Part shown: positions 4,546 to 14,966 of the stretch, piece after piece
How the letters are laid out: every line of letters starts with the position of its first letter
How positions within the stretch are numbered: position 1 is the stretch's first letter
DNA from: a candidate division Zixibacteria bacterium RBG_16_43_9
GTDB lineage: Bacteria > Zixibacteria > MSB-5A5 > RBG-16-43-9
Assembly (NCBI GenBank): GCA_001775355.1
Contig: MEWM01000066.1
Span: 138 to 15,356 of the forward strand
Direction of reading: 5' to 3'
Length of the DNA stretch: 15,219 bases
Program-made: the position numbers and the translations under genes
The notes under the pieces: generated by a model
Databases searched by the model: none
Told to the model about the DNA's origin: nothing
What the model saw: the letters and a program-made list of their open reading frames with translations, nothing else

Positions 4546-5286
4546 TCATTTCTTTTCTGCCTCCCCGGTCATAGGCACAAAGCGAACCGGGATGACGTTT
4601 TCTTTTTTAATACCTTTTTCTGTTTTGGTTACCAGGATAAGCTCCTGAAAAAGTTCTCCCACCGGGATAACCAGCCTTCCGCCGATCTTCAACTGGTCAA
4701 CTAAAGGTTGAGGGATATGGTCAGGAGCGGCAGTTACGATTATCCCGTCAAATGGGGAGTACTCTTTCCATCCCTGGTAACCATCCCCGCACTTGACTGT
4801 GATATTCTTATATCCTAATTCCTTCAAACTGCTTTCAGCCCTTTCTGCCAGGGGGCAGATAATCTCAATACTGTAAACCTCTTTGGCGATCTCAGCTAAG
4901 ATGGCTGCCTGATAACCAGAGCCGGTTCCTATTTCCAGAACCTTTTCTCCCCCTTTTAAGCCTAAAAGCTCAGTCATCAGGGCAACTATGTAAGGCTGGG
5001 AAATGGTCTGCCCCTCTCCGATAGGTAAAGGCTCATCTGCATATGCTTCTTCCTGATAGCTCTTAGGGACGAAAAGATGTCTGGGGACTTTTCTCATGGC
5101 TTTTAAAACCATAGAGTCTTTGACCCCCCGGCTTTCAATCTGGGCTTTTACCATCCAGCCCCTTTTCTCCTGCATCCTCAGGGAATCTGACTGAGTATTA
5201 TTCTCCATAGAAGAGTCCTTTTCCTCAGTTTTCCCGCAGCTAAACACAAGAAACATGAGGATTACAAGTAATACCTGCCATTTCAT
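4546..5286 (-). CDS. pcm: Protein-L-isoaspartate O-methyltransferase with a lipoprotein signal peptide
   Basis: Pcm transfers methyl from S-adenosylmethionine to isoaspartyl residues, starting repair of aged proteins. The catalytic part (about 40-242) is complete: [19 protein letters not shown] (88-106), SAM motif [11 protein letters not shown] (116-125), DGIIVTAAP (180-188), GGRLVIPVG (202-210) and the terminal VPVRF-like [11 protein letters not shown] (231-241). The oddity is the start. Residues 1-17 form a signal peptide ending in LVFSC with Cys17 as a good lipobox, followed by a polar spacer, so the protein is 246 rather than the usual 205-220 residues. The ATG at 5284-5286 follows AGGTGGAAAG and a promoter at 5325-5353, so this start is credible. 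An internal ATG at codon 27 also has AGGA seven bases before it and would give a cytoplasmic form. Which form is active is not known. Confidence 0.93.
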
Positions 5287-5324
5287 CTTTCCACCTGAAA
5301 ACTATTGGAATCTCCTTTGAGGAA

Positions 5325-5353
5325 AATAAAAATCAAAATATAGGCTTTGTCAA
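5325..5353 (-). promoter_or_regulatory. Sigma-70-type promoter before the pcm-PspC-LiaF-transporter genes
   Basis: On the minus strand a perfect TTGACA (5348-5353) is followed by 17 bases and TTTATT (5325-5330), four of six consensus positions. Transcription would start near 5318, about 30 bases upstream of the pcm ATG, leaving room for the AGGTGG ribosome binding site. It is the only consensus -35 box in the 231-bp gap. Confidence 0.5.
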
Positions 5354-5455
5354 TAGATATTTAAGAATAAGGGCTCGAGGATTAAGGGGTCAAAGGTTCA
5401 AGGAAGAAAAGAGGAAAAAATGCTGAGCAATAAGATGGGTGGGGTTGATTTTAAG

Positions 5456-5517: not shown

Positions 5518-7668
5518 TCAATGTAACTGGTTAAGAACCTCTATTCTTTCCTCACCCTGGTCTGAGATTTCGAGCATTTTGTCCTGATGCACAAAAATGA
5601 CCTTATCCCCTAAAGAAAGGTACTTCTCAAATTCCGGGAACCTTTTTGCTAACTCGAAATAGGCACGGCTGAATCTTTGAATTTTTATAATCTTAAGAGT
5701 ACTGTCATATTGACTATCCACCCAGAAGTTTCCTTCTTTGAAGAAGGTCTTGTTCCCTGCCTGGACTATGCCGGATATTTTCTTCTCTTTACCTGAAGGG
5801 TCAATGAACGCCTCTGGAGCTTTCAAGGCGTCCTGCAGACCAAGTAAATTCTTGGATTGATAAACTGCGCCTGAGCCGGTCACTGTTCGAAGGTTAGCGG
5901 TTACGCCTTTCTCGATTATTGGTCTTTCCGGGGTAACCGTTATGGGGCGATCTGCATCTACCAGAAAAGAAGTATATTGGGTTATTATACCATATCTCTT
6001 GGAGAGGCGGACAATTTCGTCGATTAATTCTGTGCTTTGGCCGTAAAGTCTAATCTGATCAACTAAATATCCGATCCTCCTTGTAGCCCAGAGACGGGGG
6101 ATGAAACTGTTTTTTCCCTCGGGTGAAAAATTTACTCGATAGGAATAGGTCTGCTTTTCTTCACCACTATATCCGCTCAGAGTAGCTGAGCTGCTTCCTT
6201 TTCCTTCATATTTTCCTAAAACCAGCACCTGAGAGCCGCTGAAAAGGTCAGGCAGTTCTTTGGGATAGATTTCAAAAGTTTTGATACCTGGGAACTTCAG
6301 GCTTAAGTCAGATAATATCGGATTAGAGATCTTCTTAAAGAAATTGGATACTTTGACTTCAATGTCCTCAGCCGGAGTCACATAATCGGAAGTAGCATGA
6401 TTTTCCTGAGCCAGTCTGTCCAGAAAATGAGTGTTCACATCAAAGCCCACGCCGAAGACAAAAATTCTGTTGGAAACATTTTTCTCTTTCACATTCTCCA
6501 GTATCCTCTTGATGTCTGTTAATCCAACCGTTGGCAAGCCATCAGTCAGAAATACGATATATGAAGTTTTGTCTTCAGGGTTTAAGTTTTTCAGACCCTC
6601 TAAAAGGGCGGAATTAATGTCTGTTCCTCCATCTGCTTCGCAATTCTGAACGAATTTTATTCCGGAATTAATATTTTCCCTGGATGCAGGGAGAAGTCTT
6701 TCACTGAAAGGCTTGATCTGGTCATCGAAATCGATCAGATTAAAGCTGTCCCCTGGATTCAGGCTGTTCAAGCAGAAGACCAAGGCATTCTTTGCCTGTT
6801 CCATCTTCTTTCCCTGCATACTGCCTGAAGTATCCAGAATAAGAATTACTCTTTTTTTGATGAACCTATCAGCCCTCTGGATTTTGGGGGAGAAAAGAGC
6901 CATAAAGAAGTTTCCCTCTTTTTTATCCTCATAACTCAAGAGATTGAAGCCCACTTCCTTATCTGACAGCGAGTAATAGAGGACAAAATCCTTATTCGGT
7001 CTGGCGTTCTCCTCAAAATAGGAGACCCTTATTCTATGGTCAGTCTCCCTTTCAATCTTTATATTCTGAGTAGGAGAATAGATATTTTTAATCGGAATAT
7101 CTGAATTGATGACCAGTTCGATTCTTACGTTTTCCAATGGAGTCTGGGAGAATTTCTCAGTGGAAAGAGAATACTTGTATTCGCAGAGGTTGTTCTCAGA
7201 TTTCAAGACCTGAGAATATCCCAATTTTATCCTGGTCTCGCCGTGTGCAGGTATGGGATAGACCCGAGCCCTGAACATCCCCTGATTATAATATTCCAAA
7301 AGAGCCGGGTCTTTTCTACGGCGAACTATCTCCTCATAAATCCTTCTGGCTCTGTCCCTGTCAAGAATTTCACCTTTTAGCTCTTCGCCACCTACAAACA
7401 TCGAAAATTTAGAAATAGAGGCATCCTCAGGCAGAGGAAAGATATAAGTCCCTTCAAGATCACGAGGATAATCATTTCTAAAAACCTGATCAACTGTGGT
7501 CTGAGCCACCTGGTTATCGATTTTGATTTCTACGTGATGATATTTGATCGAGAGGTAAGGCGGAAGCGGCTCATCTGGATGGCGGGGAACCGGGACGATG
7601 AACCCATCCGCTAAGGTCTTGGAGTAGAGGATGAGGAAGAGACATAAGGCAAAACTTAATTTCTTCAT
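5518..7668 (-). CDS. Exported VIT and von Willebrand factor A domain protein
   Basis: 716 residues with a signal peptide (1-20, MKKLSFALCLFLILYSKTLA). The VIT domain (about 40-155) shows TYIFPLPEDASISKFSMFV (74-92), RRIYEEIVRR (108-117) and ARVYPIPAHG (134-143). The vWA domain (about 272-445) has a complete metal-ion-dependent adhesion site: D279-T-S281-G-S283, T349 and D376 in LTDG. VIT/vWA proteins resemble inter-alpha-trypsin inhibitor heavy chains, and bacterial members are extracytoplasmic with poorly known ligands. Residues 576-597 hold a segment shared with the upstream anti-sigma factor. The C-terminal part (630-705), with KTFFKEGNFWVDSQYD, recurs in this protein class as far as I recall. 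The ATG follows GGAGGG. The gene lies 67 bp after the anti-sigma gene, so it is probably a target or partner of that sigma system. Confidence 0.92.
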   Translation of the reverse strand: MKKLSFALCLFLILYSKTLADGFIVPVPRHPDEPLPPYLSIKYHHVEIKIDNQVAQTTVDQVFRNDYPRDLEGTYIFPLPEDASISKFSMFVGGEELKGEILDRDRARRIYEEIVRRRKDPALLEYYNQGMFRARVYPIPAHGETRIKLGYSQVLKSENNLCEYKYSLSTEKFSQTPLENVRIELVINSDIPIKNIYSPTQNIKIERETDHRIRVSYFEENARPNKDFVLYYSLSDKEVGFNLLSYEDKKEGNFFMALFSPKIQRADRFIKKRVILILDTSGSMQGKKMEQAKNALVFCLNSLNPGDSFNLIDFDDQIKPFSERLLPASRENINSGIKFVQNCEADGGTDINSALLEGLKNLNPEDKTSYIVFLTDGLPTVGLTDIKRILENVKEKNVSNRIFVFGVGFDVNTHFLDRLAQENHATSDYVTPAEDIEVKVSNFFKKISNPILSDLSLKFPGIKTFEIYPKELPDLFSGSQVLVLGKYEGKGSSSATLSGYSGEEKQTYSYRVNFSPEGKNSFIPRLWATRRIGYLVDQIRLYGQSTELIDEIVRLSKRYGIITQYTSFLVDADRPITVTPERPIIEKGVTANLRTVTGSGAVYQSKNLLGLQDALKAPEAFIDPSGKEKKISGIVQAGNKTFFKEGNFWVDSQYDSTLKIIKIQRFSRAYFELAKRFPEFEKYLSLGDKVIFVHQDKMLEISDQGEERIEVLNQLH

Positions 7669-7735
7669 AATTCCCTCCTGGTTAAAGTTTTTCCACTTTT
7701 TCTACAAATCAAGGAAGGGATTATTCCCGAAAATT

Positions 7736-8935
7736 TTATTTTTTCTTCAAAGCCTCTAATTCGGCAATTTTCTGACTGAGTTCCTCTTTGATTTTCTGGT
7801 CAGTTACGGACGTTTTATATTTATCTAAGAGTTCTATTCCTTCTTGAAGCGCCGACTGATCCCTGGTCTTCAGGAAAAGCAGTTGATAGCCAATTATAAT
7901 CTGTGAAAAACCTTCAGGAGCCCATTCTGATACCGGCTTTTTTTCAAAATATTCTTTCCAGCAAGAAATTACCTTTTTCAAGGTATCTGCTTCCACCAGT
8001 GTGTCTTTTTCGGTTAAGGCACGCACCCAATTATTATCCAGCCTGTAAAATCTTAAGATTTCAATCGGTTGTGATTTATCTCCAATGCTTATTCGCGGGC
8101 TGACCGGAATGCCACTTGTTGTCCTGATGCGTTTATCTTCTGGCGACTTCTGAACATAAAGGATGGTTTCTGGTAAGCTTGGAGGCTTCATGGCCATTTC
8201 TGCTTGAGTAACAGTCCTTAAATTTGCTGTGACTCCTTTCTCGATTACTGGTCTTTCTGCGGTGACCGTAATAGCTTTCTTGTGCTCTGAATTGGTGCCT
8301 TCACCGATCTGTTTTGCTTTTTCTTCCCCTTTTTCTCCGATGGATGAAATCGCTGACTCTGAAGGGGTGGGGACCTGAACTATTTTTTCTTCAACTGGAG
8401 ACATTTTTGAGCCCGTGAAAGTGGTTTCTTCCTTCTGTTCTGCGACCTGGAGCGATTCTTTGACTGCTGGTGCTAATGCTTCAACTTTTTGCTGGGTTTG
8501 AGGGATTAGCACTTTCTCCATCTTTTCGGACCTAATTTTCTCCAATTCCTTCCCCCTGTAATCCCAGTAGAGCTTGCCGATTATGAAGACTAAAAGGATC
8601 GAGGCGATTCCAGCAGCTATTCTCAGTTTGACGGGCGAGTAAAAGAAAAAAGACTCCCAGCCGGATTTGAGCCTTGCCCAGATAGATTTTCTCCTTCTGA
8701 GGATAATCTCATTCCTTACCCTTTCAGCAAAGGTTTTCCAGTAATCAGGGGAAAGTTCTGGCATTCTTATACTCTTAGCACTTTCTTCAAGCTTTTTAAG
8801 CTCCTGCAGTTTTGCCGCGCAGTTTTGACAGGTCAAAAGATGCTCCTCTATCTCTTTTGATTTTCCCGCATCTAATTCACCGTCAAAATAAAGATGAACC
8901 AGTTTGTCAAAATCCTCACACTTCAATTTTCCCAC
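7736..8935 (-). CDS. Zinc-finger anti-sigma factor with long extracytoplasmic region
   Basis: 399 residues as drawn. The N-terminal zinc-binding anti-sigma domain has Cys6 and H32-x3-C36-x2-C39 (EEHLLTCQNC), expected to hold the neighbouring ECF sigma factor inactive at the membrane. One membrane helix is at 104-122. The rest, about 275 residues, lies outside: a low-complexity charged stretch (130-220), the 222-243 segment ITVTAERP...IEKGVTANLRTVT shared with the VIT/vWA protein, and an alpha-helical tail (305-399), possibly a coiled coil at the end. Most anti-sigma factors of this class are shorter, so the outer part may be a sensor. The frame opens with GTG (8933-8935), 6 bp after the sigma stop. 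However, AAGGTGG overlaps that GTG and is ideally placed for a TTG at codon 4 (8924-8926), which I consider the likelier start. Confidence 0.88.
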   Translation of the reverse strand: MGKLKCEDFDKLVHLYFDGELDAGKSKEIEEHLLTCQNCAAKLQELKKLEESAKSIRMPELSPDYWKTFAERVRNEIILRRRKSIWARLKSGWESFFFYSPVKLRIAAGIASILLVFIIGKLYWDYRGKELEKIRSEKMEKVLIPQTQQKVEALAPAVKESLQVAEQKEETTFTGSKMSPVEEKIVQVPTPSESAISSIGEKGEEKAKQIGEGTNSEHKKAITVTAERPVIEKGVTANLRTVTQAEMAMKPPSLPETILYVQKSPEDKRIRTTSGIPVSPRISIGDKSQPIEILRFYRLDNNWVRALTEKDTLVEADTLKKVISCWKEYFEKKPVSEWAPEGFSQIIIGYQLLFLKTRDQSALQEGIELLDKYKTSVTDQKIKEELSQKIAELEALKKK

Positions 8936-8941
8936 CTTCTT

Positions 8942-9538
8942 TCATAGATAACCTTTTAAACTCTTTTGCAGTCTTTCTCTTGCCCGGAAGAGCCGGGACA
9001 TCACGGTCCCTTTGGAGATCTTCAGAGTATTAGCAATCTCCTCATAGCTTAATTCCTCATACGTCTTGAGAATAAAAACCGCCCTGAATTCAGCTGGCAG
9101 GTGATCTATCTCGCTTTCTATTTTTCTGGTCAATTCATCCCTGATTAACTGCTCTGAGGCATCGGCTTTCCCCATATCCTCCACAAGCTCAAGGGAGCCC
9201 TGGGGTATCTGGCTTTCTGAGATGGTAAATTTCTGTCTTTTAAGGTAATTTATGGTCAGGTTCATACAGATCTTATAAACCCAGGCACAGAAGCTGTAAC
9301 CTTCTTTAAAAGATTTAAGGGAATAAAATGCCTTGATGAAAGATTCCTGAGCCAGGTCATCTGCTGCCTCATGCGATCTGGTCATACGTAAAGCCAGATA
9401 ATAGATCTTCTTCTGGTATTTCTCTACCAGTCTTTCAAAGGAATAGATATCCCCCTTTTTCGCCCTGGCAATGAGCTTGCCCTCAGGCTCCTCAGTTCCG
9501 GTTTTGAATCTTTTCTCCACCATCCGGACTTCCATCAT
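8942..9538 (-). CDS. RNA polymerase ECF-type sigma factor (sigma-70 family, RpoE-like)
   Basis: 198 residues, normal for ECF sigma factors. Region 2 spans about 36-103, with DLAQESFIKAFYSL (61-74) contacting core polymerase and the -10 element. Region 4 spans about 137-190, with the helix-turn-helix LSYEEIANTLKISKGTVMSRLFRAR (163-187) for the -35 element, quoted here by position with key residues E166, G177 and R182. A short linker joins them and there is no region 1 or 3. It is the first gene of a sigma/anti-sigma/VIT-vWA unit and has its own promoter 20 bp upstream. The drawn start ATG (9536-9538) has no Shine-Dalgarno sequence; an ATG at codon 6 (9521-9523) has GGAAG in front and may be the true start. 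The promoter is sigma-70-like, so autoregulation is not evident from it. Confidence 0.94.
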   Translation of the reverse strand: MMEVRMVEKRFKTGTEEPEGKLIARAKKGDIYSFERLVEKYQKKIYYLALRMTRSHEAADDLAQESFIKAFYSLKSFKEGYSFCAWVYKICMNLTINYLKRQKFTISESQIPQGSLELVEDMGKADASEQLIRDELTRKIESEIDHLPAEFRAVFILKTYEELSYEEIANTLKISKGTVMSRLFRARERLQKSLKGYL

Positions 9539-9559
9539 TATTAATACAAATCAGAATAA

Positions 9560-9588
9560 ATAATATTCCCCTGTTTTTCCAAATTCAA
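9560..9588 (-). promoter_or_regulatory. Sigma-70-type promoter before the ECF sigma factor gene
   Basis: On the minus strand TTGAAT (9583-9588), 17 bases, then TATTAT (9560-9565), five of six consensus positions in each box. Transcription would begin about 9552-9553. That leaves only about 15 bases before the ATG at 9538 but about 30 before the ATG at 9523, which has a GGAAG ribosome binding site. The 80-bp gap to the holA gene upstream supports a separate promoter here. Confidence 0.6.
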
Positions 9589-14144: not shown

Positions 14145-14966
14145 CTAAAGGTTAAAAGATAGCGTGACCTTATGGCTTCCGCCCAAGACAGGGTGACTTA
14201 GATATCCATAGTCGAACCTTAAATTCTCCAATTCCAATCCAGTGCCCAAAGAGTAGCAGGCTGGAGATGTTTTCATCCCGAATCTTAGAGCCAGGTTACG
14301 GAAAACTTTTATCTCCTGCCCGAACCTCAATTCCTCTTTCTCTGATTTAGTTTTGTACAGTTCTGCCGAGAGGAGAATCTGCTTATAGGGATATAGGGAA
14401 ATGCCAGCCGAATAGGAGAAAGGGATTCTGTCTGAATTCTTTATCAGCTCTGGCTGATTTATGTTTTTCAAAGCCAATCCGATCTGGATTTTTTCCTCTA
14501 TCTCGTAAAGCGAGCCTAAATCCAATCCCAGGGTTTTGAAATCGTCGTAGGGTGAAGGAAAAGAGAGTTGAAAATATTTCAGATTTGTTCCCAGAGAAAG
14601 ATGTTCAGACACTTTTATTCCGAATCCGATTATTATCAGGTTCTCTTTATAGTAATCATTTTTTCCAAAGATATTATATCCTGCGCCTAAGGTCAATCTT
14701 TTATTTAGAGGTAATGTCAAATACAGATCTCCCTGGGAAAGCTCATCCAATCCAAACAATTTAGACCAGCTTAGCTGTATTTCCTTTTTAGAAAAAAGTC
14801 CTGTAGATGCAGGATTGGATAAAAGATGAGAAGACTCCGAGCTAAGGGAAGAAGTAGCCCCTGCAAGGCTTAACCCTCTGGCACTGCCCGGTTTTTCCTC
14901 AAATGCTCCGGAAGAAAACTCAAAAGAAATCAGGCAGAATAAGAATGTAAAAATTAATCTTCGCAT
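14145..14966 (-). CDS. PorV/PorQ-like outer-membrane beta-barrel protein
   Basis: 273 residues with a signal peptide (1-20). The mature start GSARGLSLAGATSSLSSESS (27-46) followed by LLSNPASTGL (48-57) is the hallmark of the PorV/UPF0164 group of outer-membrane barrels in FCB bacteria. The remainder alternates polar and hydrophobic residues in repeated strands (for example RLTLGAGYNIFG at 90-101 and HLSLGTNLKYFQLSF at 121-135) and ends HKVTLSFNL, as expected for a barrel. PorV in Bacteroidetes shuttles type IX cargo to the surface sortase; PorV-like proteins in other phyla are common and their roles less certain. It begins 6 bp after a gene whose product ends in a type IX-like domain, and AAGG lies before its ATG. 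No other secretion component is in view. Confidence 0.75.
   Translation of the reverse strand: MRRLIFTFLFCLISFEFSSGAFEEKPGSARGLSLAGATSSLSSESSHLLSNPASTGLFSKKEIQLSWSKLFGLDELSQGDLYLTLPLNKRLTLGAGYNIFGKNDYYKENLIIIGFGIKVSEHLSLGTNLKYFQLSFPSPYDDFKTLGLDLGSLYEIEEKIQIGLALKNINQPELIKNSDRIPFSYSAGISLYPYKQILLSAELYKTKSEKEELRFGQEIKVFRNLALRFGMKTSPACYSLGTGLELENLRFDYGYLSHPVLGGSHKVTLSFNL

Follow-up and report, generated by a model that had tools for sequence, protein, structure and literature searches.

A peptide of a TonB-dependent receptor probably recurs in an anti-sigma factor and its VIT/vWA operon partner in Zixibacteria

An operon of the candidate division Zixibacteria bacterium RBG_16_43_9 encodes an extracytoplasmic function (ECF) sigma factor, an anti-sigma factor and a VIT/vWA protein, the last two of which share a segment of 22 residues. 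Judging from sequence comparison, this segment almost certainly copies the TonB-box/plug-entry peptide found in a TonB-dependent receptor of the same genome, here called TBDR-1. The operon lies in a stretch of 15,219 nucleotides (contig MEWM01000066.1, positions 138 to 15,356), which is referred to as the window and whose numbering is used below unless a locus (L) is named. An earlier note, made from the letters of the window, had drawn attention to the segment and proposed that it imitates a receptor peptide. Genomes are given by handles: G000 is the source genome (a 1.95 Mb assembly, 74% complete), and G002 is a relative of the same genus.

The segment comprises residues 222-243 of the anti-sigma factor, ITVTAERPVIEKGVTANLRTVT (8207..8272, minus strand), and residues 576-597 of the VIT/vWA protein, ITVTPERPIIEKGVTANLRTVT (5878..5943, minus strand); the coordinates, the residue numbers and the two differences in 22 residues given by the earlier note were correct. 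Of the residues, 20/22 are identical, as are 49/66 bases over the full length, close to the earlier estimate of about 47/63. Chance similarity was rejected: in 1000 shuffles of the anti-sigma factor, the best 22-mers reached only 7-10 identities to the VIT/vWA protein, versus the 20 observed. The two proteins have no Pfam domain in common, which agrees with the claim that their remaining parts are unrelated.

TBDR-1 (G000:C130; L004 1851-5171) is a protein of 1106 residues with Pfam matches to CarboxypepD_reg, plug and beta-barrel domains, the last two over the cut-off (PF07715, E 2.4e-9; PF00593, E 3e-21). At its TonB-box/plug-entry site it bears TTVTAERPIIDKGVTANLRTIT, within a wider stretch that reads TTVTAERPIIDKGVTANLRTITSEEVKYMPVKAVTDVLKTQVGFVVRNQELHVRGGR. 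The peptide shares 18/22 identical residues with the segment, which in the receptor spans the TonB-box region, the linker and the plug start; the receptor-peptide idea of the earlier note is thus borne out by the same peptide in a receptor of the same genome. Three plug-bearing frames were found in G000, and TBDR-1 alone matches the segment. A profile built from the TonB-box-to-IRGGR stretch of TBDR-1 matches the anti-sigma factor at 8150..8278 (minus strand; model 10-52 of 73, E 1.7e-6; G000:C66:8287-8415) and the VIT/vWA protein at 5875-5961 (minus strand; model 7-34, E 4.6e-4). In particular, the plug start of TBDR-1 can be aligned with QAEMAMKPPSLPETILYVQ, the stretch that follows the segment in the anti-sigma factor. 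The earlier note had placed a plug-like stretch after the segment in both proteins. In the VIT/vWA protein the alignment can indeed be extended through the LLGLQDAL stretch; however, this stretch is taken as native, because orthologs without the segment also have a GAVYQSK-type region. Among the matches listed, the profile finds a match in 129/129 phylum genomes searched. For 37 of the 41 genomes that were searched whole, the frame with the best match has 970-1240 residues, the exceptions being G007 (932), G031 (916), G058 (687) and G033 (a masked frame). TBDR-1 also has EF-hand-like repeats, DRNRNGKWDPAEQF, DVNGNGKYDKGEP and DQNGNGKWDSAEP, which, as read from the sequence, are perhaps calcium-binding loops.

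The sigma factor, encoded by the first gene of the operon, has 198 residues and Sigma70_r2 and r4_2 domains (8942..9538, minus strand). The anti-sigma factor (399 residues; 7736..8935, minus strand) is identified as an ECF anti-sigma factor by its zf-HC2 head (E 5e-9), the adjoining ECF sigma gene and a hydrophobic helix read from the sequence; zf-HC2 is its sole Pfam match up to E 1, and there is no FecR domain. According to an AlphaFold2 model (9 sequences, mean predicted local distance difference test score, pLDDT, 59.8), the zinc-finger head and the membrane helix, the latter read from the sequence, are followed by a disordered periplasmic linker that holds the peptide (residues 143-292; 8060..8509, minus strand; pLDDT < 50) and by a C-terminal helical domain. 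This last domain is TPR-like, and no fold could be assigned to it by Foldseek at E <= 0.001. The VIT/vWA protein (716 residues; 5518..7668, minus strand) has a VIT domain (E 5e-31) followed by a VWA domain (E 3e-16), the domain order of ITIH-like proteins, and its model (42 sequences, mean pLDDT 77.9) resembles inter-alpha-inhibitor heavy chain 1 (ITIH1; Foldseek 6fpy, E 6e-34, TM-score 0.45 over the query). Residues 567-594, with pLDDT < 50, include most of the segment. As both segments are left disordered by AlphaFold2, they look like short linear motifs. Neither protein matches the beta-barrel (PF00593) or plug (PF07715) family up to E 1. The gene order sigma factor, anti-sigma factor, vWA protein is retained in relatives; a sigma gene and a zf-HC2-like open reading frame (ORF) precede the vWA gene in 8 of the 80 loci kept, and all 8 belong to Zixibacteria.

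Comparison with other genomes indicates that pieces of TBDR-1 are also carried by anti-sigma and/or VIT/vWA proteins of other Zixibacteria families and of one genome outside the phylum set (G132, reached via L111). In G018, a member of another family, the anti-sigma factor has DTVVVTAGKKAEIRKEVATSQVKVAAEEIEKLPIRNTEGLLKVQAGVSQSEGQTHIRGGR, in which 46/64 residues are identical to its own TBDR-1, and a second, partial copy besides; the vWA protein has AIRKEIATSRVKLAPEEEKAL, which scores best with the receptor of a sister genome (69; own 45, p = 0.037). The anti-sigma factor of G003 is missing the TonB-box part and retains the IRGGR part, LKTQTGFVTEDSTKDSIHVKAGRAGEV. Among the vWA proteins, that of G033 carries a later plug motif, GGFDAQYGNNASGV, that of G035 GVTVRNDRTHLRGGRS and then QKIVVTRERQMIQMDEAATKRD, which come from its own receptor and stand there in the opposite order, and that of G040 MTSEKIKNMPITDVTDILRMQTG...LRGGQADELAY. 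The vWA protein of G132 matches 44/56 residues of its own receptor, with a score of 212 vs 114 for the best other receptor, and a MuiA protein of G017 scores 387 vs 186. The sequences KSETAHMRVISKES and KEVANLRKVTTE in the anti-sigma factor and vWA protein of G026 resemble faded copies of KYETANLRRISTDQ in its own receptor (p = 0.08 and 0.04, respectively; 0.17 and 0.01 against the best of the panel).

Similarity to the own receptor was assessed with 300 shuffles each for 25 vWA tails and 14 anti-sigma factors. Of the 28 phylum genomes with a match, 24 supplied tails, and G132 supplied one more; G005, G007, G031 and G058 were left out owing to a cut vWA gene or a TBDR-1 that was not fetched. 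The anti-sigma factors were those with a fetched receptor, and those of L071, L094 and L211 were read and left out. By chance, the 39 tests would give about 0.4 results at p <= 0.01. This level was reached by 10/25 vWA tails (G000, G001, G002, G003, G008, G033, G035, G040, G050 and G132) and 7/14 anti-sigma factors (G000-G003, G018, G033 and G042), of which G008, G050 and G042 are weak cases. The vWA proteins of G018, G026 and G054 fall in between (p 0.01-0.05), and the anti-sigma factor of G026 is likewise intermediate. Among 34 receptors, the own receptor is first or tied in 10 of the 17 positives (vWA of G002, G033, G035, G040, G050 and G132; anti-sigma factor of G000, G001, G002 and G033), and a receptor of the same family is best in 5 more (vWA of G000, G001, G003 and G008; anti-sigma factor of G018), so that the best receptor is the own one or one of the same family in 15/17.

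The kinds of protein that carry the peptide appear to be few. Profile searches of whole genomes (E <= 0.01) covered 11 and then 30 further genomes. The 11 genomes gave 31 rows, a distribution close to the one the earlier note had predicted: 18 receptor-sized frames (one of them masked; all of at least 897 residues and called receptors by length), 12 rows for anti-sigma or VIT/vWA proteins (11 proteins, the anti-sigma factor of G018 being counted twice) and one YfbK-type vWA protein. In the 30 genomes, frames of < 800 residues gave 25 rows, namely 13 receptors, some cut by contig ends, and 12 other carriers; Pfam was run on part of these short frames, and the remaining ones, among them receptors, were assigned by visual inspection. 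Six of the 12 are YfbK-type vWA proteins that start with CarboxypepD_reg, the TonB-box region and the plug start. Three are small ORFs (185-212 residues) beside YfbK-type vWA proteins, which consist only of a CarboxypepD_reg-like part, the TonB-box region and a plug start inside which they stop (L151 1170-1805, L254 2702-3328 and L255 2432-2986); all three end at nearly the same plug position. The others are a MuiA/DUF4139 protein with an inserted plug piece (G017), a different vWA protein that ends in an LpoB/CsgG-like part (G131) and, in G040, the VIT/vWA protein. In the MuiA/DUF4139 protein at L259 2249-4210, a plug piece only lies inside the DUF4139 domain, and in three relatives of G132 a module of CarboxypepD_reg and plug start is inserted there (L322 1880-4105, L323 867-3011 and L324 1573-3501; Pfam was run on L322 and L323). 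As VIT/vWA and MuiA carriers occur in both sets, the carrier kinds inside and outside the phylum set overlap. Frames of at least 800 residues outside the anti-sigma/vWA operons were mostly called receptors by length, three of them (834, 886 and 888 residues) being read. The non-receptor carriers examined were anti-sigma, vWA and MuiA/DUF4139 proteins only, apart from the small ORFs that adjoin YfbK-type vWA proteins. The objection that the segment might be a remnant of a mobile repeat gained no support: no such repeat in unrelated proteins was seen in the 41 genomes, and none of the 25 short-frame rows, with their 12 non-receptor carriers, is an obvious cytoplasmic protein.

The copies are old. 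Among the segments of the anti-sigma factor, vWA protein and TBDR-1 of G000, the proportions of synonymous (pS) and nonsynonymous (pN) differences by the Nei-Gojobori method (NG86) are 0.78-0.93 and 0.06-0.11, respectively; for the anti-sigma factor vs the vWA protein alone they are 0.78 and 0.06. Since synonymous sites are near saturation while pN is low, the protein is old and conserved, and a fresh duplication or gene conversion between the two genes was rejected, in keeping with the earlier observation that the protein is better conserved than the DNA. Twelve copy/receptor pairs from other lineages (one being the vWA protein of G018 vs the receptor of G033) have pS 0.46-0.91 and pN 0.11-0.34, and copies that had evolved neutrally to such a pS would be difficult to detect. 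Between the anti-sigma factors of G000 and G001, pN is 0.22-0.54 in the linker windows that surround the segment, one of which has 18 gap positions, and 0.05 and 0.09 in the two windows that make up 226-275 (frame numbering), where pS is also lower (0.33 and 0.12).

Upstream of the sigma gene lies a promoter-like sequence, GGGAATATT-N14-GTATT (9543..9570, minus strand), whose exact pattern occurs once per genome in G000-G003. The conserved form, GGGAATnTT-N14-GTATT, is found at this operon alone in 4/4 genomes; the reversed motif, used as a control, gave 1 match in the four. The restriction of the pattern to its own operon suggests self-control by the sigma factor. On the same ground, control of TBDR-1 by this sigma factor was rejected, the search having been one for exact matches, which would pass over weaker targets. 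A strongly conserved block, AGGACCCCTGTTCACCC...GGGTGGGCAGGGGTG (letters of G000), lies upstream of TBDR-1 in G000-G003 (L004 about 5290-5410) and by eye is partly self-complementary; no Rfam family exceeded its gathering score there, and the four sub-threshold matches were to eukaryotic families. Elsewhere in the window, the gene directly downstream of the vWA gene (4546-5286, minus strand) encodes a protein methyltransferase of the PCMT type that bears a lipoprotein-like signal (LVFSCG), and the protein encoded at 14145-14966 (minus strand) is of the outer-membrane type and matches PorP/SprF, a type IX secretion family (E 1e-5).

A docking role of some kind for the peptide is, from these comparisons, slightly favoured. 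The best explanation overall, which remains tentative and comes close to an even balance, is that a docking peptide derived from TBDR-1 lets a plug partner of this receptor also bind the anti-sigma/vWA pair. The peptide copies would sit in flexible periplasmic linkers of both proteins as docking (pseudo-substrate) peptides, and whatever periplasmic partner the TBDR-1 plug entry has, be it TonB, the vWA protein or another factor, would also bind the copy in the anti-sigma factor. Free partner might then shield the disordered linker from proteolysis until an unassembled or engaged TBDR-1 plug draws it away; the unshielded anti-sigma factor would be cut, and the sigma factor would switch on its own operon, yielding more vWA protein. 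As specified, this shielding circuit is rather unlikely. Strand addition at the segment site is plausible, given that the signalling domain of FpvA pairs with the strand holding the TonB box (PMC11658791, in the part consulted), and contact between vWA protein and plug would be natural, as YfbK-like vWA folds have been proposed to replace the TolA/TonB C-terminal domain of force transducers driven by a motor (excerpt of PMC12204202). A broader and somewhat doubtful version, covering Zixibacteria and at least one group outside, is a lineage "address" system: the plug-entry peptide of TBDR-1, a core outer-membrane receptor, would act as a barcode, each lineage repeatedly placing its own version in periplasmic vWA and MuiA proteins and an ECF anti-sigma factor. 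A co-evolving periplasmic machine would treat them collectively, as members of a single set, and how far this machine is engaged with TBDR-1 would be read by the sigma factor.

Several observations weigh against a docking peptide taken from TBDR-1. No docking of the peptide is visible in the AlphaFold2 models of the anti-sigma factor and vWA protein, and TBDR-1 is preceded by a TTGACA...TATAAT pair rather than the operon motif (by eye, in the four-genome alignment). In the own-receptor test, p > 0.1 was obtained for 12/25 vWA tails (G006, G009, G010, G015, G022, G027, G028, G034, G036, G039, G053 and G131) and for the anti-sigma factors of G005, G009, G010, G015, G024 and G047, the last two from genomes with no vWA match. 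Neither the tandem neighbour of the G132 vWA protein nor the vWA protein of its nearest relative, G140, matches the profile. The lineage match fails for the anti-sigma factors of G003 (own receptor 21st of 34, best G026) and G042 (12th of 34, best G012). No plug piece is common to all carriers, and the TonB box is absent from the vWA proteins of G040, G033, G018 and G008 and from the anti-sigma factor of G003. Moreover, comparisons between orthologs do not always show the segment to be better preserved than the parts around it: between G000 and G001 its pN in the vWA protein is 0.10 vs 0.049 for the whole protein, and between the anti-sigma factors of G018 and G033 it is 0.19 vs 0.21 in the preceding flank. 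Finally, low pN is partly selected for, because the copies were found by protein similarity. The two evolutionary checks suggested by the earlier note gave divided answers. In orthologous operons of the same order, the anti-sigma factors of G005, G009 and G010 lack the segment, and the 12 vWA tails give no sign of it (p > 0.1), so the peptide is not obligate; pN/pS is well below 1 among the anti-sigma factor, vWA protein and TBDR-1, but the segment is not always the best-kept part within orthologs.

Under TonB-box mimicry, which seems unlikely, the ITVTA core would bind the C-terminal domain of TonB by strand addition, in the manner of receptors and colicins, pulling by TonB would expose the anti-sigma factor to proteolysis, and the sigma factor would report TonB load. 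The core does resemble a TonB box, a short strand that augments the TonB sheet and that the non-receptor protein colicin M also possesses (PMC11658791, in part); TonB_C domains are present in 8/8 genomes tested, and a box-like core is found in the anti-sigma and vWA proteins of family f1, the anti-sigma factor of G018, the vWA protein of G035 and, further along the linker, the anti-sigma factor of G042. However, besides the five proteins without a box, the box is altered in the vWA protein of G000 (ITVTP) and the anti-sigma factor of G033 (VLGTA), the matched region extends well past it, and the sole TonB_C match in the 74% complete G000 is in a TPR protein. This protein (L222 2942-5005, 687 residues) ends in the TonB_C domain, and TonB_C frames of 675-697 residues also occur in G001, G002, G003, G009 and G026. 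An obligate TonB-docking role is unsupported, given that many operons lack the peptide and that some copies leave out the TonB box. The earlier note was broadly right about a receptor peptide, and its TonB-box reading was too narrow, several carriers holding other plug pieces only. One universal mechanism is likewise disfavoured, because the pieces differ, some are without the box and many operons have none.

Neutral copying, by which TBDR-1 DNA would occasionally recombine into genes with tolerant linkers and leave functionless copies, would account for the variable linkers in which the copies of the anti-sigma and VIT/vWA proteins lie, for their patchy presence and for the pieces varying by lineage, and the G018-G033 flank and the family f1 vWA comparison fit it. 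Against this, no measured copy is recent (pS 0.46-0.93), yet pN is 0.06-0.34, and a neutral copy of that age could be identified only with difficulty; all lie in frame with the host gene, and all 12 short-frame non-receptor rows of the 30 genomes are vWA or MuiA proteins or small ORFs beside YfbK-type vWA proteins. Neutral copying is judged improbable. The same low standing is given to a plug stand-in, in which vWA and MuiA proteins would belong to a machine that assembles or energises TBDR-1, the copied plug entry would occupy the barrel or plug site during assembly, and the anti-sigma factor would only report. In its favour, more than a peptide is present in the YfbK-type vWA proteins and in the MuiA proteins from relatives of G132, which have CarboxypepD_reg as well as the plug start, and vWA proteins have been proposed as motor-coupled force transducers (excerpt of PMC12204202); but with 22 to about 43 residues the copies in the window are not long enough to stand in for a plug.

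Like the FecA-FecR-FecI and FoxA-FoxR-FoxI systems, the present one comprises an ECF sigma factor, an anti-sigma factor in the membrane and a TonB-dependent receptor, with the periplasm as the presumed meeting place. To our knowledge, known cell-surface signalling regulators have a receptor-binding domain. Here, in contrast, the anti-sigma factor has no FecR domain and itself carries a copy of the receptor peptide, and the three TBDR-1 proteins searched have CarboxypepD_reg in place of an STN signalling domain, which was not matched up to E 0.01. In the sigmaE-RseA-RseB-DegS pathway, peptides of outer-membrane proteins control the anti-sigma factor, the protease binding porin C-termini; unlike there, the regulator of the window itself carries an N-terminal plug peptide. 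CarboxypepD_reg/plug fusions to YfbK-type vWA and MuiA proteins, similar ones being known in Bacteroidota, involve the same donor region; they have a larger N-terminal module, whereas the anti-sigma/VIT-vWA pair has a short linker-embedded peptide. As far as the consulted parts of the respective papers go, a domain of FoxA shields the anti-sigma factor FoxR (PMC11637429), a partly disordered anti-sigma factor binds the receptor HasR (PMC3984077), and colicins provide a precedent for a TonB box in a non-receptor protein (PMC11658791). Colicins, however, are imported toxins, whereas the copies described here lie in resident envelope proteins, extend beyond the length of the box and are similar to a single receptor. 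A proposal of 2025 gives YfbK-like vWA proteins a motor-coupled role, and the excerpt of that paper reports no deletion phenotype (PMC12204202). A thin literature search found no paper on plug peptides inside anti-sigma or VIT/vWA proteins, whose absence from print is not claimed, nor on DUF4139 together with a plug domain.

Of note here is a regulator that carries a copy of a receptor peptide, a copy that in other lineages mostly resembles the receptor of the same genome or family. That the TBDR-1 entry peptide is present in both the anti-sigma factor and the vWA protein, and that several related bacteria have it in the version of their own lineage, suggests a part for both proteins in monitoring or handling this transporter. 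If the peptide does serve for docking, it would offer a way to find a partner of TonB-dependent receptors, to learn what periplasmic vWA and MuiA proteins do and to see how uncultured phyla sense receptor assembly.

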